DNA of 64,000 nucleotides from Micromonospora sp. NBC_01796 (GTDB lineage Bacteria > Actinomycetota > Actinomycetes > Mycobacteriales > Micromonosporaceae), in the NCBI RefSeq assembly GCF_035917455.1, contig NZ_CP109078.1, forward strand, positions 4,030,001 to 4,094,000. Reading direction: 5' to 3'. The notes under the pieces were generated by a model. The model had not been told where the DNA came from. It made no database searches and saw only the letters and a list, made by a program, of their open reading frames with translations. This document shows positions 2,438 through 60,582 of this stretch, one piece after another; the stretch's first letter is position 1; each line of letters begins with the position of its first letter. The position numbers and the translations under genes are program-made.

Positions 2438-2501
2438 CGTCGATCTAGGGCAAATGGTGGTGAGCAGTGATCAACTAGCACGTATTTGCCCTAGATCGAC
2501 G
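2438..2501. repeat. Long intergenic palindrome, element 1
   Basis: Two 18-nt arms, CGTCGATCTAGGGCAAAT at 2438-2455 and its exact complement at 2484-2501, are separated by a 28-nt loop. The left flank is C-rich and the right flank (2501-2532) is G-rich, so the outer flanks are also roughly complementary. It lies between two same-strand genes. No T-run follows, so it is not a classic intrinsic terminator. Confidence 0.85.
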
Positions 2502-2617
2502 GGGGAGAGAGGGAGGGGGAGAGGGAGGGGGAAGCGGAAAGTGGAGGGCTGGTGTGTCGCGATGTATCGCGTTAGGATCGGGGTGCGGGTACGGGGTAGG
2601 CGACGGGATGGGTGATC

Positions 2618-3460
2618 ATGGCGAGATGGACGATCAACGGGCCGCAGCGGATCGCGCTCGATGAACCGGTCACCCGGTTGGAGGTCCGCCTGATCGGCGG
2701 GCGGCTCAGCGTGATGGCTACCGACGGGCCCGCCCGGGTGGAGATCACCCGAGCCAGCACCCGACCCCTGATCACCGTGGAGCACCACGACGGCCGGCTC
2801 TCCGTACGCCAGGACTGGCCCCGGAAGTGGCAGCGGCTCTTCTGGTGGCTCGGCCACCGCTACCGGGTCGACGTGTCGATCGCGGTGCCCGCGCACGTCG
2901 TCGCCGACCTGCGACTGGTCGACGGCGCGGTGCTCGTCTCCGGACTCCGCGAGCACACCCAGGTCGACGTCACGTCCGGACAGGTCACGCTGATGGGGCT
3001 GGCCGGTGAGACCAGGGCCAAGGTGGTCTCCGGCCCGGTCGAGGCACTCGGTGTCGCCGGCGAACTCGTGATGGAGACGGTCTCCGGGGAACTGGTCCTC
3101 GCCGACGGTTCCGCGGCCCGCGTACGCGCCACCACCGTCTCCGGGTCGATCACCTGCGACCTCGACAACCCCAGGCGCAGCGAGATCCGGCTCAGCACCA
3201 CCTCCGGGAGCGTGACCGTACGGGTCCGGGCGGACAGCGACATGGCGGTGCACCTGCACAGCACCTCCGGCCGGATCACCAGCGCGTTCCCGCAGCTCAA
3301 GGCGGGCAGCACGTACTGGTCGACGGACAGCCACGGGGTGCTGGGCGCAGGTGAGGGCAAGCTCTGGGCCAACTCCACCTCGGGCAGCATCGCGCTGCTG
3401 GCCCGCCCGGCGGACACCGACGACGAGTTCGTCGACGACGACCGGGAGGGGGCGGCGTGA
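2618..3460 (+). CDS. DUF4097-family beta-strand repeat protein
   Basis: A 280-residue protein with no signal peptide or membrane segment. From about residue 85 it shows short repeated beta-strand units containing T/V-SG (VTSGQV, VVSGPV, TVSGEL, TVSGSI, TTSGSV, STSGRI, STSGSI), the pattern of DUF4097 domains. The ATG at 2618 is chosen because GGGATGGG ends 5 nt before it; a GTG at 2612 is possible. The stop overlaps the PadR gene as GTGA. In related bacteria DUF4097 proteins commonly sit beside PadR or envelope-stress regulators. The molecular function is unknown. Confidence 0.8.
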   Translation: MARWTINGPQRIALDEPVTRLEVRLIGGRLSVMATDGPARVEITRASTRPLITVEHHDGRLSVRQDWPRKWQRLFWWLGHRYRVDVSIAVPAHVVADLRLVDGAVLVSGLREHTQVDVTSGQVTLMGLAGETRAKVVSGPVEALGVAGELVMETVSGELVLADGSAARVRATTVSGSITCDLDNPRRSEIRLSTTSGSVTVRVRADSDMAVHLHSTSGRITSAFPQLKAGSTYWSTDSHGVLGAGEGKLWANSTSGSIALLARPADTDDEFVDDDREGAA

Positions 3461-4062
3461 CCGGGGTGTTCAGCCACGGGCGGCTCCGGCTCTACCTGCT
3501 GAAGCTGCTCGACGACGGACCGAAGCACGGGTACGAGCTGATCCGGCTGCTGGAGAACCGGTTCCTCGGCCACTACGCTCCCAGCGCCGGCACGATCTAC
3601 CCCCGGCTCCAACGGCTGGAGGTCGAGGGCCTGGTCACCCACACCGCCGCCGGTGGGCGCAAGGTGTACGAGATCACCGACGCCGGCCGGACCGAGCTGG
3701 GCCAGCGCGACGGCGAACTGGCCGATCTCGAATCGGACATCAAGGCCTCGGTGGCCGATCTCTCCAGCCTCGCCGGGGAGATCCAGACCGAGGTACGCGG
3801 CTCGGTGCGGGACCTGAAGCGGGAGCTGCGCGCCGCCACCAGGGAAACCCGGTACGGCGGCTGGACGGTCCCCGGCGGCGCCCGCCACGTCCCGCCGCCC
3901 CCGGACGCGGATCTCGGGGCGGAGTTCGACCGCAGACTCACCGACTTCACCACAGAGGTACGCGCCCTGGTACACAACCGGCGGCTCACCGACACCCAGC
4001 TCCGTACGCTGATCCGGACCCTGGACGGTGCGCTCGACGGGTTGCGCCGGCTGCTGCGCTGA
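3457..4062 (+). CDS. PadR-family transcriptional regulator
   Basis: A 201-residue protein. Residues 5-85 form a winged-helix PadR domain (LYLLKLLDDGPKHGYELIRL, then GTIYPRLQRLEVEGLV and the wing GGRKVYEIT). The C-terminal half is helical and charged and probably dimerises. The GTG start overlaps the DUF4097 stop, implying coupled translation, so the two proteins probably work together, perhaps as regulator and sensor or effector. PadR proteins are usually repressors that respond to membrane-active or phenolic compounds. The inducer here is unknown. Confidence 0.88.
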   Translation: MTGVFSHGRLRLYLLKLLDDGPKHGYELIRLLENRFLGHYAPSAGTIYPRLQRLEVEGLVTHTAAGGRKVYEITDAGRTELGQRDGELADLESDIKASVADLSSLAGEIQTEVRGSVRDLKRELRAATRETRYGGWTVPGGARHVPPPPDADLGAEFDRRLTDFTTEVRALVHNRRLTDTQLRTLIRTLDGALDGLRRLLR

Positions 4063-4081
4063 ACCGGGCGGACCGGGCGGA

Positions 4082-4104
4082 CCGGGCGCTCCCGTGGCGC
4101 CCGG
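4082..4104 (+). terminator. Possible terminator hairpin after padR
   Basis: CCGGGCGC (4082-4089) pairs perfectly with GCGCCCGG (4097-4104) across a 7-nt loop, right after the PadR stop. A 9-bp unit ACCGGGCGG repeats about three times at 4063-4089. There is no T-run, so termination is only plausible. Confidence 0.4.
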
Positions 4105-4109
4105 ACCGC

Positions 4110-4148
4110 TCCCAGCTTGCTCCGAGCTGTTCCCAGGCAGTTTTCAGG
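4110..4148 (+). promoter_or_regulatory. Phased heptamer direct repeats, candidate PhoP-type operator
   Basis: Four related heptamers lie in a row: TCCCAGC (4110), TCCGAGC (4121), TCCCAGG (4131) and TTTCAGG (4142). Starts are 11, 10 and 11 bp apart, so all face the same side of the helix. The array ends 43 nt before the response-regulator ATG. Mycobacterial PhoP binds 7-bp direct repeats (TCACAGC, 4-nt spacer), and the first two units match that layout with TCCCAGC-N4-TCCGAGC. Autoregulation is inferred. Confidence 0.6.
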
Positions 4149-4191
4149 CTACCTCCAGCCCGCGCGCAGCGGAGCGGCGGATGATGTGGTC

Positions 4192-4890
4192 ATGGCTGCG
4201 CAGACCGAGGCACGACTACTCGTGGTGGAAGACGACCCCAACATCCTGGAGTTGCTCTCCGCGAGCCTGCGTTTCGCCGGCTTCGACGTGGCCACGGCGA
4301 CCAGCGGCAGTGCCGCCGTCACCGCGGCCAAGGACCGCCGTCCCGACCTGGTCGTGCTCGACGTCATGCTGCCCGACCTGGACGGCTTCGAGGTCATCCG
4401 GCTGATGCGGGAGAGCGGCACCCGTACGCCGGTGGTGTTCCTGACCGCGCGGGACGCCACCGACGACAAGATCCGTGGGCTGACCCTCGGCGGTGACGAC
4501 TACGTCACCAAGCCGTTCAGCCTGGAGGAGCTGACCGCCCGGATCCGGGCCGTGCTGCGGCGTACGGCGACCGGGGAGCAGGCGCCGTCCCGGCTCAGCT
4601 TCGCCGACCTGGAGCTGGACGAGGAGACGCACGAGGTGCACCGGGCCGGGCAGCGGGTCCAGCTCTCCCCGACCGAGTTCAAGTTGCTGCGTTACCTGAT
4701 GCTCAACGCGAACCGGGTGCTCTCCAAGGCGCAGATCCTCGACCACGTGTGGAACTACGACTTCCGGGGCGACGACAACATCGTCGAGTCGTACATCTCC
4801 TACCTGCGGCGCAAGGTCGACACGAGTCAGCCCCGGCTGATCCACACCCTGCGGGGCGTCGGCTACGTGCTGCGTAAGCCCGCGGCGTGA
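4192..4890 (+). CDS. OmpR/PhoB-family response regulator, PhoP-like
   Basis: A 232-residue response regulator. Receiver domain residues 8-120: acidic pair in VVEDD, phospho-acceptor Asp57 in VVLDVMLPDLDG, Thr85 in FLTARD and Lys107 in GDDYVTKPFS. The C-terminal winged helix (about 135-230) has LSPTEFKLLRYLMLNANRVL and ends HTLRGVGYVLR. The wording closely follows mycobacterial PhoP, for example LTLGGDDYVTKPFSLEEL and ADLELDEETHEV. The ATG at 4192 starts the receiver fold; the open frame upstream covers the operator repeats and is rejected. It overlaps the kinase gene as GTGA. It probably controls envelope or phosphate/acid-stress genes, including itself; the HtrA gene downstream is a likely target. 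Confidence 0.92.
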   Translation: MAAQTEARLLVVEDDPNILELLSASLRFAGFDVATATSGSAAVTAAKDRRPDLVVLDVMLPDLDGFEVIRLMRESGTRTPVVFLTARDATDDKIRGLTLGGDDYVTKPFSLEELTARIRAVLRRTATGEQAPSRLSFADLELDEETHEVHRAGQRVQLSPTEFKLLRYLMLNANRVLSKAQILDHVWNYDFRGDDNIVESYISYLRRKVDTSQPRLIHTLRGVGYVLRKPAA

Positions 4891-6455
4891 CCAGTCCGGT
4901 TTCCTCACTGAAGGGTCGGCTGCGGAGCACCCCGCTGCGGTTCAAGCTGGTCACCGCGGTCCTCGCGCTGGTCGCCGCCGCACTGCTGGTGATCAGCGTG
5001 ATGACGACCTTCTTCCTGCGCAGCTACCTGGTCAGCCAGGTGGACGCGGAACTGCACACGTCGGTACGCAGCCTCCAGTCGCTGTCCACCTCGCCGCGCG
5101 GCGGGACCATCTCGCTGCCGCTGGCCGACTACATAGTGGTGCTGACCACCGACGACCCCAAGCAGCCCGACCTGCGGTACGACACCGACCGGTTCACCCC
5201 CGAAGACCTGCCGCCGTGGCCGTCCGACCCGGACGGCTTCGCCAAGTTGCAGGGTGACCCGTTCACTGTCAAGGCGCACGACGGCACGGTCCGTTGGCGG
5301 ATGCTCTACACCGAGCTGCCCGGCGGCCAGATGGCGGCGGTGGGGCAGCACCTGACCGACGTGGACCAGGCGGTGAAGCAGCTCGTCTGGATCGATCTGC
5401 TGGTCGGCGGCGCGGTCCTGATCCTGCTCGCCTCGTTGGGGGCGGCCATAGTCCGGACCAGCCTCCGGCCACTGATCAAGATCGAGCAGACCGCGGCGGC
5501 GATCGCCGACGGTGACCTGACCCGGCGGGTGCCCGATCCCGAGCCGGGAGCGGTGGAGCCGAAGACCGAACTGGGCCGGCTCTCCCGCGCCCTGAACGCG
5601 ATGCTCACCCAGATCGAGGCGGCGTTCACCGCCCGCGCCGCCTCCGAGACCGCCGCCCGCAACGCCGAACTGGGGGCGCGGGACGCGGCGTTCGCGGCGC
5701 AGGCGTCCGAGGCTCGGGCCCGCCGTTCCGAGGAGCGGATGCGGCAGTTCGTCGCGGACGCCTCGCACGAGTTGCGTACGCCACTGACCACCATCCGGGG
5801 CTTCGCGGAGTTGTACCGGCAGGGTGCGGCCGGCTCCCCGGAGGAGACCGCCCGTCTGGTCCGCCGGATCGAGGACGAGGCCGCCCGGATGGGGCTGCTG
5901 GTCGAGGACCTGCTGCTGCTCGCCCGGTTGGACCGGGAGCGCCCGCTGGTGCTCGGTCCGGTGGAACTGCCGGTGCTGGCGACCGAGGCGGTGCAGGCCG
6001 CGCAGGCGATCGCGCCGGAACGGAACATCACCCTGGAGACCGCTCCGGGCGCCGGGGACCTGGTTGTCCTGGCCGACGACGCGCGGCTGCGTCAGGTCCT
6101 CGGGAACCTGGTGACCAACGCGCTCACGCACACGCCACCGGACGCCTCGGTGACCGTGCGGCTGCGTTCCGAGGCCGGCAACCTGGCCGTGGTCGAGGTC
6201 GCCGACACCGGCCCGGGCCTCCCGCCGGAACAGGCCGAACGGGTCTTCGAACGGTTCTACCGGGCCGACGCGGCCCGTACCCGCCGGGTCGGCGGCGCCG
6301 CCGGTACGGGTCTGGGGCTGGCGATCGTGGCCGCGCTGGTGGCGGCGCACAACGGCAGCGTGGAAGTGCTCGAGACGCCGGGTGGCGGCGCGACCTTCCG
6401 GGTCAAGGTGCCGCTCGCCCCGACCGTGGCCGACGATTCGTCCGAGGGCGAGTAG
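4887..6455 (+). CDS. Sensor histidine kinase, cognate of the PhoP-like regulator
   Basis: A 522-residue membrane kinase. TM1 spans about 19-47, an extracytoplasmic sensor 48-166 and TM2 167-190. A HAMP region and an Ala/Arg-rich coiled segment (about 248-285) follow. The dimerisation and phospho-acceptor motif is FVADASHELRTPLTT with His294. The ATP-binding domain has NLVTNALTHTP, DTGPGLP and GTGLGLAIV. The start overlaps the regulator stop by 4 nt. The signal sensed is unknown; the external loop shows no recognised ligand domain. A two-component pair followed by an HtrA-type protease recalls the mycobacterial mprAB-pepD locus. Confidence 0.92.
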   Translation: MTSPVSSLKGRLRSTPLRFKLVTAVLALVAAALLVISVMTTFFLRSYLVSQVDAELHTSVRSLQSLSTSPRGGTISLPLADYIVVLTTDDPKQPDLRYDTDRFTPEDLPPWPSDPDGFAKLQGDPFTVKAHDGTVRWRMLYTELPGGQMAAVGQHLTDVDQAVKQLVWIDLLVGGAVLILLASLGAAIVRTSLRPLIKIEQTAAAIADGDLTRRVPDPEPGAVEPKTELGRLSRALNAMLTQIEAAFTARAASETAARNAELGARDAAFAAQASEARARRSEERMRQFVADASHELRTPLTTIRGFAELYRQGAAGSPEETARLVRRIEDEAARMGLLVEDLLLLARLDRERPLVLGPVELPVLATEAVQAAQAIAPERNITLETAPGAGDLVVLADDARLRQVLGNLVTNALTHTPPDASVTVRLRSEAGNLAVVEVADTGPGLPPEQAERVFERFYRADAARTRRVGGAAGTGLGLAIVAALVAAHNGSVEVLETPGGGATFRVKVPLAPTVADDSSEGE

Positions 6456-6546
6456 CGGCCGTGTGCCGCTGCGGGTCGCGCGATTCACAGCGAACATCCA
6501 GTGCGATTCCAGGTGGGTCGCAGAGCTTCGGGGCAAGGTAGGTGTC

Positions 6547-8271
6547 ATGAGCGAGTACGAAACCGACCCGCAGCGGCCTTCGGCCAACGCCGACGCCGAC
6601 GCCACGCCGTCGTATCCCACCGCGGAGTTGTCGCCCGTCGAGCGCGGGCCGGCCGACTCCACCCCCGCGGCCTCCGGTCAGGCCGTCGGCGGCACCGAGC
6701 CGACCGCCGCCGCCTCCGAGCAGCAGACCACCGCCTACTCCGCGCCGACCCCGTACGGCACCGTCACGCCCACCACGGACGGCGGCGCCGCACCGAGCAC
6801 GGACGGCACCGCCACGCCGACCACGGACGGGAGCACCGCCCCGACGACCGGTGGACCGGTCGGGCCGACCGGAGCGACGACCGACCCGTACGGCAACCCG
6901 TACGCCGGGCACGGCGCTCCCGCCCCGCACGCGGCCGGGCCGTACGCCGGTTACCAGCGGCCGACCGACCCCTACGCCGGCCAGTACGGCGGCGCCCAGC
7001 CCGGTTCCGCCGTGCCGGCCTCCTACCCGCCGAGCCCCTGGCACCCGGCCGCCCAGAACCAGCCGGGCTGGACGGGCAACCCCAGCTACGCCGGGCAGCA
7101 CACGCCCGGTGCCCCGATGCCGCCGCAGCCGCCGCACCTCGGTGGCAACCCGCCGCCGATCTGGGCCCAGGGCCCGGGTGGACCGGGTCACCAGCCCCGG
7201 CCGAGCCGGCTGGGCCGGTTCGCGGCGATCGGCGCGGCCGCCCTGGTCCTGATGGCCGGTTCCGGCATCGCCGGTGGCGCGGTCGCGTTGGCCCTCGACG
7301 ACGGTTCCTCCGGCCCGACCCGGACGTACTCCGCCGCTCCGATCATCAACAGCGCCGACCTGCCCAAGATCGCCGCCTCGGTGGAGAACAGCGTCGTCTC
7401 GATCACCACCGGCAGCGGTGAGGGTTCGGGTGTGGTGCTCAGCGCCGACGGTTACGTCCTGACCAACAACCACGTGGTGGCCAGTGCCACCGGGGACACG
7501 GTCAAGGTGGTCTTCGCGGACGGCAAGACCGCCCAGGCGAAGATCATCGGTACCGACCCGAAGACCGACCTCGCGGTGGTCAAGGCGCAGGACGTCAGCG
7601 ACCTGAGCCCGGCGAAGCTCGGTGACAGCGACGCGATGCAGGTCGGCGACACGGTGCTCGCCCTGGGCAGCCCGCTGGGGCTGCAGGGCTCGGTGACCGC
7701 CGGCATCCTCAGCGCCAAGGACCGGACCATCCAGGCCGGTGGCGAGGACGAGTCTCAGCCGCAGAACCCGTTCCAGCAGCAGCAGCCGCCGCAGGCGGCC
7801 AGCTCGATCTCCGGGCTGCTCCAGACCGACGCCCCGATCAACCCGGGTAACTCCGGCGGTGCCCTGATCAACACCAAGGGCGAGGTGATCGGCATCAACA
7901 CCGCCATCGCCACCGCCGGGAGCAACGGCAACATCGGTGTCGGCTTCGCGATCCCGAGCAACAAGGCCAAGGACGTGGCCGGCAAGCTCCAGCAGGGTCA
8001 GAAGGTCAGCCACCCGTACCTCGGGGTGAGCGTGACCGAGGCGGACAACGGCGGTGCCGTGGTCGGCGGGGTGACCGAGGGCAGCCCGGCCGCCCAGGCC
8101 GGTATCCAGCAGGGCGATGTCATCAGCCGGTTCGGCGACAAGGTGGTCAACGACTCCAACGATCTGGTCGGGGCCGTGCAGACGGGCAAGGTGGGCGACA
8201 AGGTGCAGTTGACCTTCACCCGAAATGGTGTGGAGAAGACGGCAACCGTGACGCTGGCTGAGACGTCATAG
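6547..8271 (+). CDS. HtrA/DegP-like membrane-anchored serine protease with PDZ domain
   Basis: A 574-residue protein. Residues 1-220 are a Pro/Gly/Tyr/Thr-rich cytoplasmic region. A single transmembrane segment lies at about 223-250. The trypsin-like domain has the triad His309 (TNNHVV), Asp341 (KTDLAVVK) and Ser436 (NPGNSGGAL). A PDZ domain (HPYLGVSVT to the C-terminus) completes the fold. HtrA proteases degrade or refold damaged exported proteins at the membrane surface. The ATG at 6547 has GGTAGG 5 nt upstream. It follows the two-component pair by 91 nt and ends before a strong terminator, so it may be the output gene of that system. Confidence 0.93.
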   Translation: MSEYETDPQRPSANADADATPSYPTAELSPVERGPADSTPAASGQAVGGTEPTAAASEQQTTAYSAPTPYGTVTPTTDGGAAPSTDGTATPTTDGSTAPTTGGPVGPTGATTDPYGNPYAGHGAPAPHAAGPYAGYQRPTDPYAGQYGGAQPGSAVPASYPPSPWHPAAQNQPGWTGNPSYAGQHTPGAPMPPQPPHLGGNPPPIWAQGPGGPGHQPRPSRLGRFAAIGAAALVLMAGSGIAGGAVALALDDGSSGPTRTYSAAPIINSADLPKIAASVENSVVSITTGSGEGSGVVLSADGYVLTNNHVVASATGDTVKVVFADGKTAQAKIIGTDPKTDLAVVKAQDVSDLSPAKLGDSDAMQVGDTVLALGSPLGLQGSVTAGILSAKDRTIQAGGEDESQPQNPFQQQQPPQAASSISGLLQTDAPINPGNSGGALINTKGEVIGINTAIATAGSNGNIGVGFAIPSNKAKDVAGKLQQGQKVSHPYLGVSVTEADNGGAVVGGVTEGSPAAQAGIQQGDVISRFGDKVVNDSNDLVGAVQTGKVGDKVQLTFTRNGVEKTATVTLAETS

Positions 8272-8335
8272 CAGGAGGACCCGTTCGTACCTGAAGGCGG
8301 TTCTTCCGTAACCCGGAAGTGCGCCTCCTCCCCAA

Positions 8336-8390
8336 GCGGCGGGCGATGTGACCAAGGGGGTTGGTCACGTCGCCCGCCGCACCTTTTTCC
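8336..8390 (+). terminator. Strong intrinsic terminator after the HtrA gene
   Basis: A 20-bp stem (8336-8355 with 8361-8380, one G-T wobble) closes a GGGGG loop and is followed by ACCTTTTTCCC. It is the clearest rho-independent terminator in the window and ends the two-component/protease block. Confidence 0.88.
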
Positions 8391-8481
8391 CACCCGTCGG
8401 TTCGGCCGGTTATCCCCGGCCGAGCAGGGAAACCCGAAGTATCCGGCGGGTCAGCCGGAGCAGTGGGGAGGGCTCGACGTC

Positions 8482-9597
8482 GTGAACCACATGCCGATCG
8501 ACCGATTCGACCAGACCGTACCGTTGCGGATCGCCATGGTCGTACCGCCCTGGTACGAGCTGCCGCCGAAGGGGTACGGCGGGGTCGAACAGGTCTGCGC
8601 GGCACTGGTGGACGCGCTGGCCGCCCGTGGGCACGAAGTGACCCTCTTCGGCGCCGGGACGGGTTCCGGCACCGCTGCCCGTTTCGTCGGGACGATGCCC
8701 GAGCTGCAACACGAGCGTCTCGGGCAGTCGTTGCCCGAACTGGCCCACCTGGCGCGGGCCGACCAGATGATCAACCCGGACGTCTTCGACGTGGTGCACG
8801 ACCACACCACCATCGGCCCGTTCGTGGCGCCCCGGCGCTCGGTCCCGACGGTCGCGACCGTCCACAACAGACCAACCGGGGAACTCGGGGACATCCTGGC
8901 CGACGTCGACCGTTCGGTGGGACTGGTGGCGATCTCGCACGCCCAGCGGCGGCTGCGTCCGTACCTGCCGTGGGCGGCGACGGTGCACAACGGGTTGGCG
9001 CTGGACGACGTACGGCACAAGTCGCAGCCGGGTACCGGACCGGTCCTCTGGCTGGCCCGGTTCAGCCCCGACAAGGGTCCCGACCTGGCCGTACGCGCCT
9101 GCCGGGCGGCCGGGCTGTCGCTGGTGCTGGCGGGCAAGTGCGACGAGCCGGAGGAGCAGCGTTACCTGACCGAGGTGATCGAGCCGTTGCAGGGACCGGA
9201 CCTGACCGTGCTGCGCAACCCGGACCGGGCCACCTGTTTCCAGCTCATGCTCGACGCCCGGTGCCTGATCATGCCGATCCGGTGGGAGGAGCCGTTCGGC
9301 ATGGTGATGGTCGAGGCGATGGCCACCGGTACGCCGGTGGTCGCACTCGACCGGGGTGCCGTACCGGAGCTGGTCCGGTCGGGGGAGACGGGCCTGATCT
9401 GCGTCGACCCGGACGACCTCCCGCAGGCCCTGCTCGACGCGGGGGACCTCGACCCGGCCGCCAGCGTGGCCCACGTACGCAACGCCTTCTCCGCCGAGAT
9501 GATGGCCGAAGGCTACGAGCGGGTCTACCGCCAGTGGGCCAACACCGCCCGCGAACGCCCGGCCCACGCCGCCCTCACCCCCACCGGCGCCTGGTAA
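8482..9597 (+). CDS. GT4-family glycosyltransferase
   Basis: A 371-residue GT-B fold enzyme. The N-terminal domain begins RIAMVVPPWYELPPKGYGG with the Gly-rich loop and continues VVHDHTT. The C-terminal nucleotide-sugar domain has LWLARFSPDKGPDLAV and then EEPFGMVMVEAMATGTPVVA, the EX7E motif typical of GT4. Such enzymes transfer a hexose from a nucleotide sugar to a glycan, lipid or small molecule; the acceptor cannot be told from sequence. A GGGGAGG site precedes the GTG start by about 10 nt; an ATG 9 nt further on is possible. It appears to be transcribed alone. Confidence 0.88.
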   Translation: MNHMPIDRFDQTVPLRIAMVVPPWYELPPKGYGGVEQVCAALVDALAARGHEVTLFGAGTGSGTAARFVGTMPELQHERLGQSLPELAHLARADQMINPDVFDVVHDHTTIGPFVAPRRSVPTVATVHNRPTGELGDILADVDRSVGLVAISHAQRRLRPYLPWAATVHNGLALDDVRHKSQPGTGPVLWLARFSPDKGPDLAVRACRAAGLSLVLAGKCDEPEEQRYLTEVIEPLQGPDLTVLRNPDRATCFQLMLDARCLIMPIRWEEPFGMVMVEAMATGTPVVALDRGAVPELVRSGETGLICVDPDDLPQALLDAGDLDPAASVAHVRNAFSAEMMAEGYERVYRQWANTARERPAHAALTPTGAW

Positions 9598-9711
9598 CCC
9601 GACGACGGCGTCCCCGTCCGGCGCAGTGGGCCGGGCGTCGGGCGCAACCGCGTCACGGGGGTAGCGCGGTTGCCGTACCGGCCCGGACGATGGGGGCAGG
9701 AGGTGGTCGTA

Positions 9712-11040: not shown

Positions 11041-11057
11041 CCGGCCCGTGAAACAGC

Positions 11058-12476: not shown

Positions 12477-12508
12477 CCGCCCGCGCCACGACCGGTCGGG
12501 AGGACTGG

Positions 12509-14089: not shown

Positions 14090-14117
14090 CCCGCGCACCC
14101 CAGGTCAGACACAGAAG

Positions 14118-14146
14118 AAGGGCTCCAGCATCCCGCTGGAGCCCTT
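14118..14146 (+). terminator. Terminator-like hairpin after chitinase gene 1
   Basis: AAGGGCTCCAGC (14118-14129) and GCTGGAGCCCTT (14135-14146) form a perfect 12-bp stem with a 5-nt loop, 29 nt after the stop codon. No T-run follows; such hairpins are usual terminators in high-GC actinomycetes. Confidence 0.7.
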
Positions 14147-14184
14147 CGTCGCTCGGCAGGGGGCTCGGACGCCCCGCCCTCCCC

Positions 14185-14260
14185 GACGATCTTGCAGTTG
14201 TGGCGCCCGGATAAGCGAGGTTCACCCGGATTTGTGTACCACCACAACTGCAAGATCGTC
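14185..14260. repeat. Long intergenic palindrome, element 2
   Basis: A 19-bp perfect stem: GACGATCTTGCAGTTGTGG at 14185-14203 and its complement at 14242-14260. The 38-nt loop contains GCGAGGTTCACCCGGATTTG, which element 3 also carries. The element lies between the convergent 3' ends of the chitinase and cutA genes. Confidence 0.88.
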
Positions 14261-14309
14261 GCGCGTCTAGCGGGTGCTCCTCGTGAAGGCGACGGACGCC
14301 GTTGGTTTC

Positions 14310-14391
14310 TCCGGCGATCTTGCAGTTGTGGTGCCCGGATAGGCGAGGTTCACCCGGATTTGTGCACCACCACAACTGCAAGATCGCCGGA
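14310..14391. repeat. Long intergenic palindrome, element 3 (tandem copy of element 2)
   Basis: A 24-bp perfect stem (14310-14333 with 14368-14391) contains the same CGATCTTGCAGTTGTGG core. Its loop is nearly identical to that of element 2, and the flank GTCTAG-GGGTGCTCCTCG is also shared, so a unit of about 128 bp has been duplicated in tandem. The stem sequence differs at its outer end with both arms changed together, which keeps the pairing. Confidence 0.88.
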
Positions 14392-14414
14392 GGTCTAGTG
14401 GGTGCTCCTCGCGG

Positions 14415-32383: not shown

Positions 32384-32435
32384 TTGTAGAGGAAGAGTGG
32401 TTATCCGGCTACGGATAACCACTCTTCCTCTACAA
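32384..32435. repeat. Long intergenic palindrome, element 4
   Basis: A 24-bp perfect stem (32384-32407 with 32412-32435) and a 4-nt GCTA loop. The arm begins TTGTAGAGGAAGAGTGGTTA, unlike the CGATC-type arms of the other elements. It lies between convergent FHA and rocD genes and has a C-rich left flank. A bidirectional terminator role is plausible here. Confidence 0.88.
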
Positions 32436-35619: not shown

Positions 35620-35935
35620 AACACACCTCCTGGTCGTAGCGCGGCTACCCAAACCCATCAGCCCCGGCACCCACGCGGTCTACCCCCCCGAATTACCCCA
35701 ACCCCCAACCCCCAACCCCCACCCCGCCCCTCGCCCCGCCCCTCGCCCCGTCCCTCGGCCCGTCGATCATGAAGTTAGCGACGAATTCACGCCGGAAAAT
35801 GGTCGCTAACTTCATGATCAACGCACCAAATAGGAGGGTGGGGAGGGGTGGGTGGGGGAGGGTGGGGTTGTTTGGTGGGAGTGGGGTGGGGGCGCGGGGG
35901 TGGGGGTGGGTGGGGTGGGGGATGTTGGGGAGAGT
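35620..35935. other. Divergent intergenic region with palindrome and G/C-rich tracts
   Basis: Between the divergent starts of the broken gene and an LtrA gene lie a C-rich tract (35683-35760), palindrome element 5 and a very G-rich tract (35837-35935) with at least ten runs of three or more G. The G tract could form quadruplexes in the leader of the LtrA gene. Confidence 0.65.
35765..35819. repeat. Long intergenic palindrome, element 5
   Basis: GATCATGAAGTTAGCGAC (35765-35782) pairs perfectly with 35802-35819, and the stem extends outward by CGT/ACG after one mismatch, so the arm reads CGTCGATC at its outer end. It lies between divergent gene starts, which argues against a simple terminator role. 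Confidence 0.88.
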
Positions 35936-46274: not shown

Positions 46275-46282
46275 TGTCGGTC

Positions 46283-52538: not shown

Positions 52539-52547
52539 GGCTTATTG

Positions 52548-53879: not shown

Positions 53880-54323
53880 CGCCACCACCCGCCGTCCATC
53901 GGTTGCCGTCGCGCCGAGATCGGCGCCTACCGACCTCGTTACCCAGCGCAGTCGCTCCGGAAAACGCCGAATCGGCGTGGCGCCACGCACTCCGGACCCG
54001 ACCAGCGAGTCTCCGGGCACGATCGGGGTGTGGACCGACCACCCGTAGGCATGAAGGGTTCAATTCGGGCGTAAGTAGCTGGCCCGGAGCGGATAGTCGA
54101 TCAGGACGTACATCAAAGATGATGTGAATACCCGTCTGGGTATGTAGAGAAAAATTGCGTTGCCACTTTCAGTGGCACTACGCACCGTAGGGAAGTGGCT
54201 GCATGGCGAGGGCGGCCGGGGGCGCAGGACCGGGGTGCATGGGCCGGGCGCAGGACCGGCGGCGCAGGACCGGCGGCGCGGGACCGGCGGCGCAGGACCG
54301 GGGGCGCACCGGCGCTCGGTCGG
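53880..54323. other. Intergenic region between the ligase and DUF1501 genes
   Basis: These 444 nt include an unusually AT-rich patch (54100-54170) with two short inverted repeats: ATACCC/GGGTAT (54128-54143) and TGCCACT/AGTGGCA (54161-54177). A 14-bp tandem repeat follows at 54247-54302. The AT-rich part is probably the promoter of the ligase gene. No RNA gene or small protein was recognised. Confidence 0.55.
54247..54302. repeat. 14-bp tandem repeat after the DUF1501 gene
   Basis: Four units of GGCGCAGGACCGGC, one with a single change, lie 20 nt beyond the stop of the DUF1501 gene, and a related unit occurs at 54224-54235. Confidence 0.8.
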
Positions 54324-55697
54324 CTAGCGGAAGACCCCGATCTCCCGGGGCTTGAGGCCGGGGAAGATGGTCTTCGGGTCGGCCACGCCCATCCGGGTCT
54401 TGAGCAGCTCGGTCAGCACGTCGCGGTAGTCGTTGGCGCCGGCCAGGTCGCCCTGGTCCAGGGCCGAGGCGGCGAGCCCCGGCCATCGGCCGTGCACCTT
54501 GCCGCCGTTCATCCCGCCACCGAGCATCAGCATCAGCCCGCCGTGCCCGTGGTCGGTGCCGGAGCTGCCGTTCGCCTCGACCCGGCGGCCGAACTCGCTC
54601 ATGGTGACCACCGAGACGTCGTCCAGCGCCGGGCCCAGGTCGGTCGCGAAGGCGCCGAGCGCCCCGGCCAGCTCGTTCAACCGGTTGCGCATGTCGCCGC
54701 CGTCGGGCCCGCCGATGTTGGTGTGCATGTCCCAGCCGCCGATGTCGACCGCTGCCACCCGCAGCCCCACCTTCGCCTTGATCAGCCGGGCCACGTCGCG
54801 TAGCTGGTCGGCGAAGCCACCGCCCGGCCACTGCGCCGTCGACCTGTAGTCCTTGCTGGCGATCTTGCGGGCAGCCGCGATCGACGCCAGGGTCTCGGTC
54901 GCCTGGGTCGCCAGCGGGTGGTCGTCCAAGCCGGTGTAGAGCGCCTTCAGCGCGGTCAGCGTGCTCGCCCGTACGCCGCTGAAGCCCTGCAGGTCGAACT
55001 CGCGGATGCCCTGGAGCACCAGCTTGTTCTCGCCGCCGACCAGCGAGCGGGGCAGCGCCGCGCCCTCGGCGATGGCCCGGAACGTGGTGCCCGGACCGAG
55101 TGCGGTCAGGACCCGGTCCAGCCAGCCGGTGTGTACGCCGGTCGAGGCGGCGCCGCGTTCCAGGCAGTCCTGCGCCTGGAAGTGGCTGCGGCTGGCGTCG
55201 GGCGAGGCGACCGCGTGGACGGCGGCCATCTTGCCCGACTTCCAGAACGGTTCCAGTGGCGCGAGGGCCGGGTGCAGGCCGAACCGGTCGTCCCCGGCGA
55301 TCAGGGCGCCGGGCTGCACCGCGATGTTGCGGCGGGCGTTGAGGTAGTTCCGGTCACCGCGCGGCACCACCACGGAGAGGCCGTCCATGCCGCCGCGCAG
55401 GAAGACCACCACCAGGGTGCGGTTGGTGGTGGCCGGCGCACCGAACGCGACCCGGGTGGTGGCGATCTGGCCGGCGAGACTGGCCACGCCGACCGCACCG
55501 GCACCGGCCATCACCCGGCGCCGGGTGAAGCCGTGCCGCCAGCGGTCGCGCTGCCCGGTCAGCTCCTCGGTGACCGCCTCGGCGTGCACCCGGATCGCCG
55601 CCTCGGGCAGGTTCGGCCCGTGCCGGCGCAGCTCCTCGGCCGTACGCGGACGCGGCGCGACGTCGTCGCGCGTACCGGGAGAGTTGTCCTGCGTCAT
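54324..55697 (-). CDS. DUF1501 family protein with Tat signal
   Basis: A 457-residue protein. Residues about 55-85 contain a twin-arginine signal (GFTRRRVMAGAGAVGVASLA). The DUF1501 core follows: LVVVFLRGGMDGLSVVVPRG, AVHAVASPDASRSHFQAQDC, GGWDMHTNIGGPDGG, VVTMSEFGRRVEANGSSGTD, HGHGG. DUF1501 is sulfatase/phosphatase-like in fold and exported. The 50 residues before the signal form an unusual charged extension. It lies 9 nt after the DUF1800 gene, the standard pairing of these two families. Confidence 0.92.
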   Translation of the reverse strand: MTQDNSPGTRDDVAPRPRTAEELRRHGPNLPEAAIRVHAEAVTEELTGQRDRWRHGFTRRRVMAGAGAVGVASLAGQIATTRVAFGAPATTNRTLVVVFLRGGMDGLSVVVPRGDRNYLNARRNIAVQPGALIAGDDRFGLHPALAPLEPFWKSGKMAAVHAVASPDASRSHFQAQDCLERGAASTGVHTGWLDRVLTALGPGTTFRAIAEGAALPRSLVGGENKLVLQGIREFDLQGFSGVRASTLTALKALYTGLDDHPLATQATETLASIAAARKIASKDYRSTAQWPGGGFADQLRDVARLIKAKVGLRVAAVDIGGWDMHTNIGGPDGGDMRNRLNELAGALGAFATDLGPALDDVSVVTMSEFGRRVEANGSSGTDHGHGGLMLMLGGGMNGGKVHGRWPGLAASALDQGDLAGANDYRDVLTELLKTRMGVADPKTIFPGLKPREIGVFR

Positions 55698-55706
55698 GGT
55701 CTCTCC

Positions 55707-57599
55707 TCAGCGCAGCGCGTGGTAGATCGAGTCGAGGAACAGCGGGGCCAGGTGTTCGATCTTGCCGCCGAGGGTGGCGTTCTTGACCGCCGTACCCTCC
55801 TTCGAGCCGAGGAAGGTCAGCATCGCCTGCTTGTCCTTGGCGGTGAGCGGCTGCTGCAGCAACCGGGCGGCGAGGGCGTCCAGGTACTGGCCGGTGGTGG
55901 GCGGCCGTTTGCCCACCAGCCCCTCCGGCTTCGGGTACGACAACCCCTTCTGCGCGCCCTGCACCAGGGCCCGGTGGCTGTTCCAGATGGCCAGGGTGGC
56001 GTGCGCCGAGCGCCAGGCCGCCGCCACGTCGGGGTAGCCGTTCGGCGGCACCCAGCCCAGCGGCGGCTGCCCGAACCGCTGGGTGAGCCGGTAGAGCCCC
56101 TCGATCCCGGCCCGGGTGTCCGCGCCGGGTGCCACGCCGAGCGAGCGGGCGGTGGCGACGAAGTTCTCCAGCGGACGGCGGGCCTTGAGCCCGGTGGAGA
56201 TCCAGAACTCCTGCGAGCGGAACAGCACCCGCAGCACCGGGGCGATCGCCGTCCCGTTGGCCAGGTACGCCTCGGCCAGCCGCTGCACCAGGTGATGCGG
56301 CGGGGTGTCGGCGACGAACCGGACCGCCAGTTTGCGGGCGATGTTCTTCGCCGTCGCCTCGTGGGTGGCCAGGTATTGCAGGTAGCGGTCGCCGAGTGCG
56401 AGTCCCTTGGGGCGGGACGGGTTCTTGTCGGTGAAGCCGAGGACCTTGACCGGGTCGATCCAGTGCCGGTCGTTCTCGTACCGGAACTCGCCCTCGTTCG
56501 TCACGGTCCGGCCCGTCATGATGTACGCGCTGTTGCGTACGTCGGATTCGGTGTAGCCGCCGTCGATCCCGACCGTGTGCAGCTCCAGCAGCTCCCGGCC
56601 GTAGTTCTCGTTGACCGACCTGCGGTGCGACTCGTTGTTGTTCAGGTAACGAAGCATCGCCGGGTTGCGGGCGCTGGCGGCGAGCATGTCGGAGAACTTG
56701 CCGAGGGCGTGCTTGCGGATCACCTGACTGTCGAACGAGGTCCGTACGTCCCAGCCGCCGTCGAACGGGTTCGTCACGTTCAGGTGGTTGGACCAGAAGT
56801 CGACCATCACCTCGAAGAGCTGGCGGCTGCTCCAGAACTGGCGGGCCAGGGTGGCGTGCCCCAGCTCGTACTGGGCGGCCCAGTCGAACTCCTTGACCGC
56901 ACGCCTGATCTGCGCGGTCGACATGCCGACGGTGGGGAACGAGGCGAGCACCTGGTCGCCGATCGGGTCCTCGACCCTGCCCGGTTCGAGCTGCCGGTCG
57001 ATCCAGGCGTCGATGCCGACGGCCCGGATCGCGTCCGCCTCGGTCCGGGTCGGTCCGAAGGTGGCCCGGCGCAGCAGGTGCAGGACCGGGTCGCGGCTGA
57101 GCGGGTTGGGGAAGACCGGGGTCGCTTTCAGGGCCGCCTCGGCGGCCTTGGCCGGGGTCTCGGCCAGCCCGGTTGCGCCGAAGTTGATCGACTCCCCGAG
57201 CGACTGGCTGTAGCTGGCGTCGCGGTCGGCGAAGGATCCCGCGTCCCGGGGCGACCGGGTCGAGGTGGCCTGGTCGCTCACGGCCGCGGCGATCCCACCA
57301 CCCCCACCGAGTACGGCGGCAGCCGAGCCGACCGCGCCGGTGGCGACCGCGGCGGCGCCGAGCCCGATGACCACCTGGCGGCGGTTGCGCAGCAGGTTGA
57401 ACAGGGCCGGTTCGCCGGCTCGGGCGGCCCGGGCCATCGTGCCGAGCACCGGGGCCAGGCGGTTGGTCGCGCCCCGGCGTTCGCCGGTGCCGGTGTCCCG
57501 CCGCGCCGGTGCCCGGTGCCGGGACTCCCCGTTGGGGGCTCCCACTCCGGCCGCCCGGCCGTCGCGCTCCGCCGGGCCCGACTGTTCCCGCTCGGCCAT
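55707..57599 (-). CDS. DUF1800 family protein
   Basis: A 630-residue protein. Residues 1-70 are Arg/Gly-rich, then a hydrophobic stretch (RRQVVIGLGAAAVATGAVGS) that could be a Tat-like signal or membrane anchor. The DUF1800 domain includes HLLRRATFGPTRTEADAIRA, FWSNHLNV, ENYGRELLELHTVGIDGGYT, DVRNSAYIMTGRT, and RPLENFVATARSLG. DUF1800 and DUF1501 proteins are encoded together in many bacteria, and their biochemical role is still unclear. The ATG at 57599 starts the two-gene operon. Confidence 0.92.
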   Translation of the reverse strand: MAEREQSGPAERDGRAAGVGAPNGESRHRAPARRDTGTGERRGATNRLAPVLGTMARAARAGEPALFNLLRNRRQVVIGLGAAAVATGAVGSAAAVLGGGGGIAAAVSDQATSTRSPRDAGSFADRDASYSQSLGESINFGATGLAETPAKAAEAALKATPVFPNPLSRDPVLHLLRRATFGPTRTEADAIRAVGIDAWIDRQLEPGRVEDPIGDQVLASFPTVGMSTAQIRRAVKEFDWAAQYELGHATLARQFWSSRQLFEVMVDFWSNHLNVTNPFDGGWDVRTSFDSQVIRKHALGKFSDMLAASARNPAMLRYLNNNESHRRSVNENYGRELLELHTVGIDGGYTESDVRNSAYIMTGRTVTNEGEFRYENDRHWIDPVKVLGFTDKNPSRPKGLALGDRYLQYLATHEATAKNIARKLAVRFVADTPPHHLVQRLAEAYLANGTAIAPVLRVLFRSQEFWISTGLKARRPLENFVATARSLGVAPGADTRAGIEGLYRLTQRFGQPPLGWVPPNGYPDVAAAWRSAHATLAIWNSHRALVQGAQKGLSYPKPEGLVGKRPPTTGQYLDALAARLLQQPLTAKDKQAMLTFLGSKEGTAVKNATLGGKIEHLAPLFLDSIYHALR

Positions 57600-57768
57600 T
57601 CTGGGCGCACCTCTTCGTCGATCCGGGGGTTGGGTCGGGCGTCCGGCAGCCAGCGCCCCAGGCGCACCCTAGCCAGCCTCCGAGTTGTCGCTCAACCATC
57701 GAGGCGGATTGTTAAGCCGTACCAAAGGAACCGTGGCGGGACACGTCCGGTGGGGTGGCGCGGGTGGC

Positions 57769-57774
57769 TACACT
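57769..57774 (+). promoter_or_regulatory. Candidate -10 box of a leaderless transcript (DUF6412 gene)
   Basis: TACACT fits TAnnnT and ends 6 nt before the GTG, placing the transcription start at the start codon. There is no ribosome site. Confidence 0.6.
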
Positions 57775-57780
57775 GGGCCG

Positions 57781-58077
57781 GTGCCGGAGTCGCTGATGGT
57801 CGTCGTGAGCTGGTGGGCGTACGCCCTCGCGCACGTCGCCACGGTGGCCACCCGCCCGTCCGAGCTGCTCGCCGGTGCGGTGGCGGTGGCCACCCTGCTG
57901 GCGGTCGCGATCGCCCTGCACCTGGTCAGCGGCCCACACGGGACGGCCGGTGCGGCCACCCGTGGGCTGACCATCCGGGACCGGGCGCGCCGGGCGCGTG
58001 TTCCCCGCCAGCTCGACCCGGACGCGGCCGGTCGGCCCCGTCCCCGAGCACCGACGGTGCTCCTCTCGGCCGCGTAG
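57781..58077 (+). CDS. Small membrane protein (DUF6412-like)
   Basis: A 98-residue protein with two hydrophobic segments (about 5-22 and 28-48) and a basic, Arg/Pro-rich tail (RDRARRARVPRQLDPD). It resembles the small DUF6412 proteins encoded just before a YidC-like insertase in actinomycetes. The GTG at 57781 appears leaderless. It may assist the insertase at 58217; the assignment is based on pattern and context, not on a catalytic motif. Confidence 0.7.
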   Translation: MPESLMVVVSWWAYALAHVATVATRPSELLAGAVAVATLLAVAIALHLVSGPHGTAGAATRGLTIRDRARRARVPRQLDPDAAGRPRPRAPTVLLSAA

Positions 58078-58216
58078 CGGCTTCACCTCCCCGCCGCCAC
58101 GCGGCCGGTTCCGTCCTTCACCGTCCACATCGGACGTTCTCTCCAGGCTCCGCACCCGGTGCTGACCACACGCACCCGGTGCCGTGCCTTCCCGGAATCG
58201 GACCGAGGGGTTCACC

Positions 58217-58969
58217 ATGTTTGCCTTCGCACCACTCGACGGCGCCGTCGGCGTCGCCGCCACCGTCCTCGACGCGCTCGCCACGGCGGTCGCGCCACTG
58301 GCCGGCACCGCTGCGACCGCCGCCGCCGTTGTGCTCTTCACCATCGCCGTACGGCTACTGATCACGCCCCTGACCTGGGCCCAGGTACGCGGCGAGCGGC
58401 GCCGTGCCGAACTCGCCCCGCAGATTCGCGAACTCCAGCGGCGCTACAGCAAGGACCGGGCCCGGTTGCAGCAGGAGATGGTCACGCTGTACCGGGACGC
58501 CGGGGCGAGTCCGGTCGCGGGTTGCCTGCCGGGGCTGCTGCAGGTGCCGTTCTTCGTGGTCATGTACCACCTCTTCACCGCCGCCGGATCGGACGACGGG
58601 GGAGCGGGGATGCTCGCCGAGCGGCTGGCCGGGGTGCCGCTCGGGCACCACGTCGCGGACGGGCTGGGCGGTGCGGCGGGGCCGCTGTTCGGCGTACTCC
58701 TGGTGTTGTTGCTGGTCCTGGCGTGGTGGACGTCCCGGCGGATGCGTCGGGACGCCGCGGTGGCCGCCGCCGCCCAGCAGCCGGGCGGTACGGAAATGCC
58801 CGGCGCCGCCGTGCTGACCCGGATCCTGCCGCTGCTGCCGTACGGAACCGTGCTGGCCGCCCTGGTGCTGCCGCTGGCGGCGGTGCTCTACCTGGTCACC
58901 ACCACCGCCTGGACGGCACTCGAACGGGCGGTGCTGCGCCGGCCGCAGGCAGCGGTGGCGACCACCTAG
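58217..58969 (+). CDS. YidC/Oxa1-family membrane insertase, short paralogue
   Basis: A 250-residue membrane protein. After an N-terminal hydrophobic region it has the YidC core LFTIAVRLLITPLTWAQVRG (with the conserved Arg in the groove), the coiled cytoplasmic loop LAPQIRELQRRYSKDRARLQ, GCLPGLLQVPFFVVMYHLFT and two C-terminal membrane segments. YidC inserts proteins into the membrane. The genome should have another copy near rpmH, so this is probably a specialised paralogue with its DUF6412 partner. GAGGGG lies 6 nt before the ATG at 58217. Confidence 0.9.
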   Translation: MFAFAPLDGAVGVAATVLDALATAVAPLAGTAATAAAVVLFTIAVRLLITPLTWAQVRGERRRAELAPQIRELQRRYSKDRARLQQEMVTLYRDAGASPVAGCLPGLLQVPFFVVMYHLFTAAGSDDGGAGMLAERLAGVPLGHHVADGLGGAAGPLFGVLLVLLLVLAWWTSRRMRRDAAVAAAAQQPGGTEMPGAAVLTRILPLLPYGTVLAALVLPLAAVLYLVTTTAWTALERAVLRRPQAAVATT

Positions 58970-58982
58970 ACATCGACAAACG

Positions 58983-59031
58983 TTGACATGAGTGAGTCCG
59001 GGACGTACAACCGGAGAGAGAGCGCTCTCTC
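58983..59031 (+). promoter_or_regulatory. Promoter and CebR/LacI-type operator of the GH16 gene
   Basis: TTGACA (58983-58988), a 17-nt spacer and TACAAC (59006-59011) form a consensus promoter. The perfect palindrome GAGAGAGCGCTCTCTC (59016-59031) covers the expected start site. Its GAGCGCTC core is that of CebR-type LacI repressors of glycan-hydrolase genes in actinomycetes, so repression relieved by an oligosaccharide is likely. Confidence 0.75.
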
Positions 59032-59057
59032 ACCCGTCCCGTAGAGAGGCCAACATC

Positions 59058-60485
59058 ATGACCAGCACCGTCCCGGCCCCGGCCGGAATCGCACCGAGAC
59101 GCCGCAGACTCCTGCTGCTGGCCGTGCTCACCACGATCGTCACCGTGGTGAGCACGGTCTCGGTGACCGCCCGCGCCGCCGTACCGCCGACCCCGCCCGG
59201 CTGGAGTCTGGTGTGGAGCGACGACTTCAACGGCGCCGCCAACACCCTCCCGTCGACCGGCAACTGGATCATCGACACCGGGACCAGCTACCCCGGCGGA
59301 CCCGCGAACTGGGGCACCGGCGAGATCCAGACCTACACCAACAGCACCGCCAACGTCAGCCACGACGGCGGCGGCAACCTGCGGATCACCCCTATCCGCG
59401 GTGCCAACGGCCAGTGGACCTCGTCCCGGATCGAGACCGTACGGACCAACTTCAAGCCGCCGGCCGGTGGTGTGCTCGCCATCGAGGGCCGGATCCAGAT
59501 GCCGAACGTGACCGGTGCCGCGGCGGCCGGCTACTGGCCGGCGTTCTGGGCGCTCGGTGCGCCGTACCGGGGCAACTACCAGAACTGGCCGGGCATCGGC
59601 GAGTTCGACGTGATGGAGAACGTCAACGGGATCAACTCGGTCTGGGGCGTACTGCACTGCGGGGTCGCACCGGGCGGGCCGTGCAACGAGTTCAACGGCA
59701 TCGGCACCAACCGGGCCTGCCCCGGCAGCACCTGCCAGTCGGCGTTCCACACGTACCGCTTCGAGTGGGACAGCGGCTCGAACCCGCAGCAACTGCGCTG
59801 GTACGTCGACGGCCAGCAGTTCCACACGGTCACCCAGAACCAGGTCGGCCAGCCGTACTGGAACAACATGACCAGCCACGCCGGCTACTTCCTGCTGCTC
59901 AACGTCGCGATGGGCGGCTCGTTCCCGAACGGGGTCGCCGGTGCCACCACGCCGACCGCGGCAACCGTCTCGGGCCGGCCGATGCTGGTCGACTACGTGG
60001 CGGTGTGGAGCCGGGGCGGTGGCACCCAGCCCACGACCCCGCCGCCCACGTCGCCGACCACCCCGCCGCCCGGTGGTGGCGGCAGCGCGTACTCGACGAT
60101 CCAGGCCGAGGCGTACAACGGGCAGAACGGCGTACAGGTCGAGGCGTGCAGCGAGGGCGGGCAGAACCTGAGCCACCTGGCCTCGGGTGACTGGGCCCGG
60201 TACGACAACATCGACTTCGGCACCACCCCGGCGCGTGACTTCGTGGCCCGGGTCGCCTCCGGTGCCGCCGGTGGGGTGAGCGGCCTGGTCGAGGTACGCC
60301 TGGACAGCCCGACCAACCCGCCGATCGGCAGCTTCGCCCTCGCCAACACCGGCGGCTGGCAAACCTGGCGCTCGGTCCCCGGCAACATCACCCCCACCAC
60401 CGGCCGCCACACCGTCTACCTCACCTTCACCAGCGGCCAGCCGGCCGACTTCGCCAACATCAACTGGCTAACCTTCCGCCGCTGA
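59058..60485 (+). CDS. Secreted GH16 beta-glucanase (probable beta-1,3-glucanase) with CBM6
   Basis: A 475-residue exported enzyme. Signal peptide about 1-40, then the GH16 domain: WSDDFNGAANTLPSTGNWII, GYWPAFWALGAPYRGN, and the catalytic motif GEFDVMEN with Glu182, Asp184 and Glu187. A Pro/Thr/Gly linker leads to a CBM6-like module from about 345 (IQAEAYNGQNGVQVEACSEG, DWARYDNIDFG). It probably cleaves laminarin-type glucans of fungi or algae. AGAGG lies 10 nt before the ATG. Confidence 0.93.
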   Translation: MTSTVPAPAGIAPRRRRLLLLAVLTTIVTVVSTVSVTARAAVPPTPPGWSLVWSDDFNGAANTLPSTGNWIIDTGTSYPGGPANWGTGEIQTYTNSTANVSHDGGGNLRITPIRGANGQWTSSRIETVRTNFKPPAGGVLAIEGRIQMPNVTGAAAAGYWPAFWALGAPYRGNYQNWPGIGEFDVMENVNGINSVWGVLHCGVAPGGPCNEFNGIGTNRACPGSTCQSAFHTYRFEWDSGSNPQQLRWYVDGQQFHTVTQNQVGQPYWNNMTSHAGYFLLLNVAMGGSFPNGVAGATTPTAATVSGRPMLVDYVAVWSRGGGTQPTTPPPTSPTTPPPGGGGSAYSTIQAEAYNGQNGVQVEACSEGGQNLSHLASGDWARYDNIDFGTTPARDFVARVASGAAGGVSGLVEVRLDSPTNPPIGSFALANTGGWQTWRSVPGNITPTTGRHTVYLTFTSGQPADFANINWLTFRR

Positions 60486-60512
60486 CCCTCCCCGCCCCAC
60501 CCATCCCCCCGT

Positions 60513-60582
60513 CGATCTTGCAGTTGTGGTGGCCACGATGCGCCTTTAGAGGCTTTTGTTCGGCGCCACAACTGCAAGATCG
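60513..60582. repeat. Long intergenic palindrome, element 6
   Basis: CGATCTTGCAGTTGTGG (60513-60529) pairs perfectly with 60566-60582. It has the same core as elements 2 and 3 but an unrelated loop. The left flank is C-rich (60487-60510) and the right flank G-rich (60592-60602), as at element 1. It lies between the GH16 and chitinase genes on the same strand. Confidence 0.88.

Follow-up and report, generated by a model that had tools for sequence, protein, structure and literature searches.

The question raised by a 64,000-nucleotide stretch of the Micromonospora sp. NBC_01796 genome (contig NZ_CP109078.1, positions 4,030,001 to 4,094,000; hereafter the window) is what its six long perfect palindromes are and what they do at the ends of genes. 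The sequence evidence indicates that they belong to palindromic repeat families which most likely act as 3′-end hairpins. More specifically, we propose, with a probability of about one half, that the four families of the window and a fifth from a related genome (F1 to F5) are exchangeable 3′-end or terminator hairpins that would work in both directions and whose arms would be read by sequence.

The six palindromes are genuine and beyond chance, with RNA folding z-scores of -7.4 to -13.6 against shuffled sequence. All of the long perfect stems of the original prediction lie at the places it gave, with edges off by one or two bases and arms of 17-25 bp; no strand is assigned to any of them. F1 occurs three times (14184, 14309 and 60509). 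The first copy (14184..14261) has 20-bp perfect arms, CGACGATCTTGCAGTTGTGG, and a 38-nt loop, and forms a tandem pair with the second (14309..14392), which has 25-bp perfect arms and a loop 92% identical to that of its neighbour. The third (60509..60586, with 17-bp perfect arms at 60513-60582 and a 36-nt loop) lies past the stop codon at 60485. F3 is represented at 2438..2501 by 18-bp perfect arms, CGTCGATCTAGGGCAAAT, around a 28-nt loop (56 bp GATC to GATC), F2 at 35761..35823 by perfect 18-bp arms, GATCATGAAGTTAGCGAC, at 35765-35819 around a 19-nt loop, with outer ends CGTC and CGTT, and F4 at 32384..32435 by 24-bp perfect arms, TTGTAGAGGAAGAGTGGTTATCCG, around a 4-nt loop, between convergent genes.

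As first described, the inner arms differ and three are alike: TTGCAGTTGTGG is common to three of the window palindromes. The family arms are CGNYGATCTTGCASTTGTGG for F1 (loop 36-39 nt), GATCATGAAGTT for F2, GATCTAGGGCA for F3 and TTGTAGAGRAWGAG for F4. An outer CGNYGATC is carried by F1, F2 and F3, so the common outer core over otherwise different arms is real; it is found in at least one arm of five of the six window palindromes, and the one at 32384 belongs to F4, which has no GATC core. Beyond what had been predicted, we find that arm sequence is near-constant, that each family has a near-fixed length and that families replace each other at orthologous sites.

Exact patterns recovered 54 copies of F1 in the window's genome (G000, a single contig of 8,562,983 bases), bearing out the expectation of a family with dozens of genomic copies, along with 45 of F2, 12 of F3, 10 of F4 and none of F5; reversed control patterns had no match there. 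Two genomes of the same genus differ in their complement. G001 has no F1 or F4, 24 F2 and 9 F3, and carries 125 copies of the fifth family, F5, with arms GGAAGGGCCCCTT; G002 has 54 F1, 39 F2, 71 F3 and neither F4 nor F5. Across the bacterial family F1 was found in 15 of 300 genomes and 5 of 44 genera, and its presence varies between species. F2 was found in 17, F3 in 6, F4 in one and F5 in 18 of 150 genomes, F4 being in none of the other 149 searched. Among the matches listed, F1 carriers include Dactylosporangium roseum, D. sucinum, D. fulvum, three Virgisporangium species and Micromonospora pattaloongensis.

Length is tightly held. The F1 loop between 16-nt arms measured 36-39 nt in all 125 copies read, where the pattern permitted 16-46, and the element spans 68-71 bp from GATC to GATC. 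F4 measures 52 bp in 10 of 10 copies. Among the matches listed, F3 spans 55-56 bp GATC to GATC, F2 54-59 bp (mostly 55) and F5 mostly 45-46 bp, a few copies falling elsewhere between 39 and 56 bp.

The palindromes are concentrated at gene 3′ ends. With gene contexts taken from a simple codon-usage gene caller written for this analysis, the 54 F1 copies of the window's genome lie in 30 convergent, 23 same-strand and one divergent region, against shares of 0.139, 0.456 and 0.405 expected from the intergenic room at the same loci; refined element ends give 29, 23 and one, with one copy inside a called gene. The nearest stop codon lies at a median of 35 nt (52 copies). The same holds in named relatives (n = 122; 62 convergent, 50 same-strand, 4 divergent and 6 at a locus edge) and for F5 in the G001 sequence analysed (n = 18; 8, 8, one and one). 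The original prediction had placed the six palindromes in convergent, same-strand and even divergent contexts and argued that they therefore could not all be terminators. By our gene calls only the copy at 35765 lies between divergent genes, and the argument does not carry over to F1 at large, since 53 of its 54 copies adjoin one or two gene 3′ ends and only one is divergent. In both the window's genome (locus L195, at 4316 and 5459) and G002 (L228), one conserved gene has an F1 copy on either side, the two being about 1.1 kb apart.

We surveyed perfect arms of at least 13 bp in 400 kb of G001 and in 464 kb of the window's genome, the latter comprising 400 kb of evenly spaced sequence and the window, where the palindromes had first been noticed. 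In the window's genome they occupy 19 of 48 convergent, 18 of 144 same-strand and 4 of 71 divergent regions and 5 of 405 genes; in G001, 17 of 44, 9 of 128, 2 of 60 and 2 of 352. A single dinucleotide shuffle per region gave none outside genes in either genome, and three (window's genome) and one (G001) within genes. Occupancy of convergent regions is thus alike in the two genomes despite their different families. By a short-motif label, 24 of the 44 non-genic palindromes in the window's genome fall outside all families and are mostly unique GC-rich hairpins.

Orthologous sites show what happens to an F1 position in a sister species. Eight could be read in G001, where F5 stands at four, F3 at one and no palindrome at three. 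Where both flanking genes are orthologous, F5 is found at the window 60485 site, L212 and L218, F3 at L217 and nothing at L211 and L213; with one orthologous flank, F5 follows the counterpart of window gene 14089 and L196 has none. The F5 at the 60485 site is imperfect and was classified by eye, as was an F5 variant at L300. Ten sites read in G002 have F1 at seven (five of these fetched by arm pattern), F3 at L142, an ordinary hairpin at L193 and none at L192; the five sites reached by gene order comprise two F1, one F3, one ordinary hairpin and one without a palindrome. Another palindrome standing in for F1 is, on small numbers, a frequent outcome, and this points to a place that is useful and a family that is exchangeable. 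An insertion hot spot at orthologous gene ends may account for the replacement as well.

Within F1 the arms are almost invariant. In 914 kb not selected by arm sequence (464 kb of the window's genome including the window, 370 kb of G002 placed by gene order and 80 kb of D. roseum), a scan allowing up to five mismatches per arm contained 13 F1 elements, 12 with perfect arms and one with a single mismatch, so there is no decay series. Another three candidates, each arm of which has 4-5 mismatches, resemble chance matches; G001, which is free of F1, yields three of the same kind. Of 121 arms with at most two mismatches, 108 belong to the 54 exact F1 palindromes, leaving at most 13 others. Seven ortholog pairs between the window's genome and G002 have no change at 210 non-S arm positions and four at 14 S positions; because five of the pairs had been retrieved through their arm pattern, the count is unbiased for just the other two, and L225/L232 (50% identity only), L050/L180 and L067/L075 (both between genera) were excluded from the counts.

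Pairing is held as well, as had been anticipated from the window. At position -2 the two arms of a copy agree in 0.57 of the 54 copies of the window's genome against 0.31 expected, a value reached by none of 2000 shuffles; the figures are 0.59 against 0.26 in G002 and 0.68 against 0.49 in the named set. Two ortholog pairs altered both arms together at this position (A-A to C-C and G-G to C-C); others were not kept paired. Coupling in the window's genus ends at -4, with none at -5 and a weak signal at -6. In three Dactylosporangium genomes of the 10 genomes searched, D. fulvum (90 copies) and two congeners (36 and 21), C8 has become G in both arms, and next to the F5 core all four Watson-Crick pair types occur among the matches listed. 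Pairing and arm sequence are therefore both held, and the arm sequence is stricter than pairing alone requires.

The loops behave differently. Their consensus sequences are specific to lineage, and in the seven ortholog pairs loop identity is 0.45-0.94 in gene orientation, three of the seven matching better when inverted. A better match on inversion relative to the flanking genes was seen for L197/L329, L191/L230, L198/L019 and L142/L061, as if arms had recombined or templates had switched. By eye, loop motifs also recur across arm families (TTGATCTCC-like in F2 and F3, ACAAAYCGG-like in F1 and F2), a pattern that an exchange of arms and loops would give. The inverted loops are what would be seen if the palindromes were a mutational by-product, template switching at long hairpins matching the arms and inverting the loops with no further function. 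We consider this very improbable, as such repair matches arms within one copy and would not keep 54 loci alike.

Two ideas about the loop were rejected or found no support. A selected inner fold was not supported by native against half-swapped F1 loops (-9.02 vs -8.81 sd 0.28, -8.75 vs -7.68 sd 0.37, -13.04 vs -12.78 sd 0.19 and -10.15 vs -9.61 sd 0.60 kcal/mol), a gain of just under 3 sd appearing in G002 only. Nor does the loop clearly have a single orientation relative to the gene in the window's genus (19 of 32, p 0.38). In named relatives loop orientation does track gene direction in 35 of 49 same-strand F1 copies (p 0.004).

The flanks are skewed in all five families, C-rich and G-poor on the left and G-rich and C-poor on the right. 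Such tracts had been reported for several window copies and are there: plus-strand C-rich tracts lie at 2408..2437, left of the F3 copy with a G-rich tract at 2502-2531 on its other side, and at 35685..35760, left of the F2 copy with a G-rich tract on its right. For F1 in the window's genome the composition is C 0.57 and G 0.18 before the element and C 0.17 and G 0.56 after it, fading across about 80-120 bp; for F5 in G001 (18 copies) the skew is weaker, with C 0.47 and G 0.27 on the left and C 0.25 and G 0.46 on the right. Palindromes outside the families, a class that includes some F5 of G001, show little of it. The stretch from the stop codon to convergent F1 copies has C 0.57 and G 0.20, where DNA after stop codons generally has C 0.36-0.40 and G 0.31-0.33. 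RNA arriving from the gene would therefore be C-rich. F1 combines a stable hairpin past a stop codon, as in intrinsic terminators, with a predicted C-rich, G-poor RNA before the end point of the kind associated with Rho; the mirror skew is present on the other side too.

Several observations weigh against the reading of F1-F5 as terminator-like hairpins. These can be summarised as (i) F1 in the window's genome is followed by no U-tract (T 0.14-0.15 over the next 20 nt), which excludes canonical intrinsic terminators; (ii) the C-rich and G-rich flanks also lie downstream of same-strand copies and at the single divergent F2 copy, so they need not be Rho sites, and the opposing gene does not explain the mirror tract in same-strand contexts; (iii) an ordinary hairpin accompanies F1 at L213, L197 and window 14117, where a unique GC-rich hairpin (14117..14147, no strand assigned) lies just past stop codon 14089 and upstream of both tandem copies, so F1 is not the sole candidate terminator at those loci; (iv) the place of F1 is without a palindrome at three of the eight sites read in G001 and at one of the ten in G002, and the fetching by arm pattern noted above bears on most of the retained G002 sites and ortholog pairs; (v) the S position is unequal between arms in 19 of 54 F1 copies, being weakly coupled in the window's genome (0.65 vs 0.51, p 0.036) and showing no coupling in G002 (p 0.38); (vi) at the outer two positions in same-strand contexts there are 15 G-U, 17 A-C and 14 other mismatches, so G-U is no commoner than A-C and there is no RNA-strand signal.

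Points (v) and (vi), together with arm conservation beyond pairing and the nearly fixed spacing, would suit sites in duplex DNA, with a protein dimer on two fixed-spaced arms acting as an intergenic road-block or nucleoid organiser. This we think improbable. The coupling at -2, the change of C8 to G in both arms and the four F5 pair types all point to pairing, the mostly 3′-end location better fits the ending of transcription, and F4 and F5 would need other proteins.

The main competitor holds that the palindromes are non-autonomous repeats resembling REPINs (pairs of inverted REP sequences), their fixed-spaced invariant ends copied by a putative enzyme, with 3′ ends merely the least harmful places for insertion. 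Its anatomy matches closely: GI REPINs, according to the accessible text of their description, have invariant 16-mers at both ends, a less conserved spacer and a fixed distance of 71 bp (PMC3116915), close to the 68-71 bp of F1. F1 copy number runs from 0 to 119 across one genus (g44), the lineage-specific loop consensus is expected from spread within lineages, and the sister genomes hold palindrome-free sites (L211, L213, L192). Many near-identical copies in D. fulvum reflect a recent burst. Of 32 C8-to-G copies read there, 31 share near-identical loops and common flanks conserved for about 45 nt, often with inverted GAGCCTG-type ends, whereas the remaining copy (L263) is solitary, with a C-rich and a G-rich tract as its flanks. 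Twenty-two of the 31 have recognisable outer ends on both sides; for 16 of them the outside DNA pairs across the whole repeat, which places the repeat inside another palindrome. In some copies one side has been truncated or rearranged. The F1-type palindrome lies in the middle of these repeats (L275-L294, L260, L266, L269, L272, L243, L246, L247). The accessible part of one report describes insertion sequences that have palindromic repeats as their targets (PMC1525189).

Other evidence makes the REPIN-like account a possible but doubtful one. The burst in D. fulvum belongs to a larger repeat, a MITE-like element (miniature inverted-repeat transposable element) that carries the F1-type palindrome there; no such common flanks are found at F1 copies of the window's genus. 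The RAYT-like transposase that the original prediction suggested looking for was not found: a search for the Y1 transposase family PF01797, positive in 5 of 14 control genomes, had no hit in three genomes, two of them with 54 F1 copies (Dactylosporangium and Virgisporangium were not included), and repeats driven by RAYT are accordingly rejected for the genomes searched. Carriage by a plasmid or phage was rejected likewise, one 86-base query each finding no match in plasmid or phage records. Decaying copies are absent from the scanned 914 kb, arms are kept in orthologous copies with diverged loops (mostly fetched by pattern), and 40 of 54 F1 copies lie in the origin-proximal half (p 0.0005; dnaA at 2.97 Mb, a circular chromosome being assumed).

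We therefore return to exchangeable 3′-end hairpins as the preferred explanation. Gene 3′ ends would draw on a small set of sequence families (F1-F4 in the window's genome, F5 in its relative), each supplying a stem of about 20 bp and a loop of near-fixed length, with arms kept near-constant while the loop drifts. RNA from either side would be C-rich and G-poor, an approach resembling Rho loading, and would then meet a very stable stem; acting in both directions, the hairpin may terminate transcription or shield RNA 3′ ends. A factor that reads the arm sequence, the least certain step, would explain why arms are conserved beyond the need of pairing. We infer the effect on RNA, and the reader, from the location, constancy, pairing and replacement observed here. 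A more far-reaching and rather unlikely version is that Micromonosporaceae possess sequence-coded gene-end modules, with each family arm served by its own factor, loops as fixed-length spacers and lineages switching modules, amounting to sequence-specific, exchangeable termination or 3′-end formation.

To our knowledge, the ending of transcripts without U-tracts in high-GC actinobacteria is poorly understood. The palindromes offer a countable and testable set of candidates for such end signals: their arms are near-constant, their lengths near-fixed, and sister species show natural replacements. If they are selfish instead, they would be REPIN-like repeats whose copying enzyme is apparently other than RAYT. 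One further call in the window, a minus-strand tRNA-Pro (cgg) reported by ARAGORN at 5585-5680, lies inside a predicted plus-strand gene (4887-6455) and is possibly false.

Among known systems, Rfam families were excluded within the window, where no match exceeded the gathering cut-off. The titles and abstract openings surveyed held no description of these families, five palindrome sequences used as text queries gave four seemingly unrelated matches, and the accessible text of RepRanger (PMC12306157) offers for these genera only a table line on other Actinomycetota. This literature suggests that a gene-end signal of this kind is apparently undescribed so far.

Like the REPINs of the accessible text of PMC3116915, F1 has two near-invariant inverted ends of about 16 bp at a fixed distance with a looser, variable spacer, and is intergenic and lineage-specific. 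Unlike them, F1 comes without a Y1 transposase in three genomes, without GTAG in its arms and without decayed copies or single arms in the scanned stretches (13 of 13 elements paired, each with at most one arm mismatch), and the window-type families are strongly biased to 3′ ends, with another family at some orthologous sites. CGTC-tagged REPs are, in the available portion of their description, palindromic, with CGTC-like ends, chiefly between convergent or unidirectional genes and with no dedicated transposase known, all of which is shared here; their stems of 8-9 bp, loops of 4-5 nt and unpaired CGTC (PMC3733652) differ from the stems of 17-25 bp, F1 loops of 36-39 nt and paired CGNY of the present families. 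A survey of intergenic stem-loops in 40 genomes likewise found a preference for 3′ ends and convergent genes, with few stem-loops in repeat families; the new families named in its accessible text are only those of Yersiniae, Bordetellae and Enterococci (PMC1590033).

With MITEs the families share being short and repeated with inverted ends; they differ in that coupling along the stem does not extend beyond -4 in the window's genus, apart from the weak signal at -6, and the spacer has diverged. Nearly all F1 arms among the matches listed have a partner about 55 bp away. Intrinsic terminators, including bidirectional ones, place a stable hairpin shortly past stop codons and are favoured between convergent genes. 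Unlike these, the window families have no U-tract, a longer stem, an arm sequence common to the whole family and a near-fixed length, whilst they share with intrinsic terminators the stable hairpin near stop codons and the preference for convergent genes.

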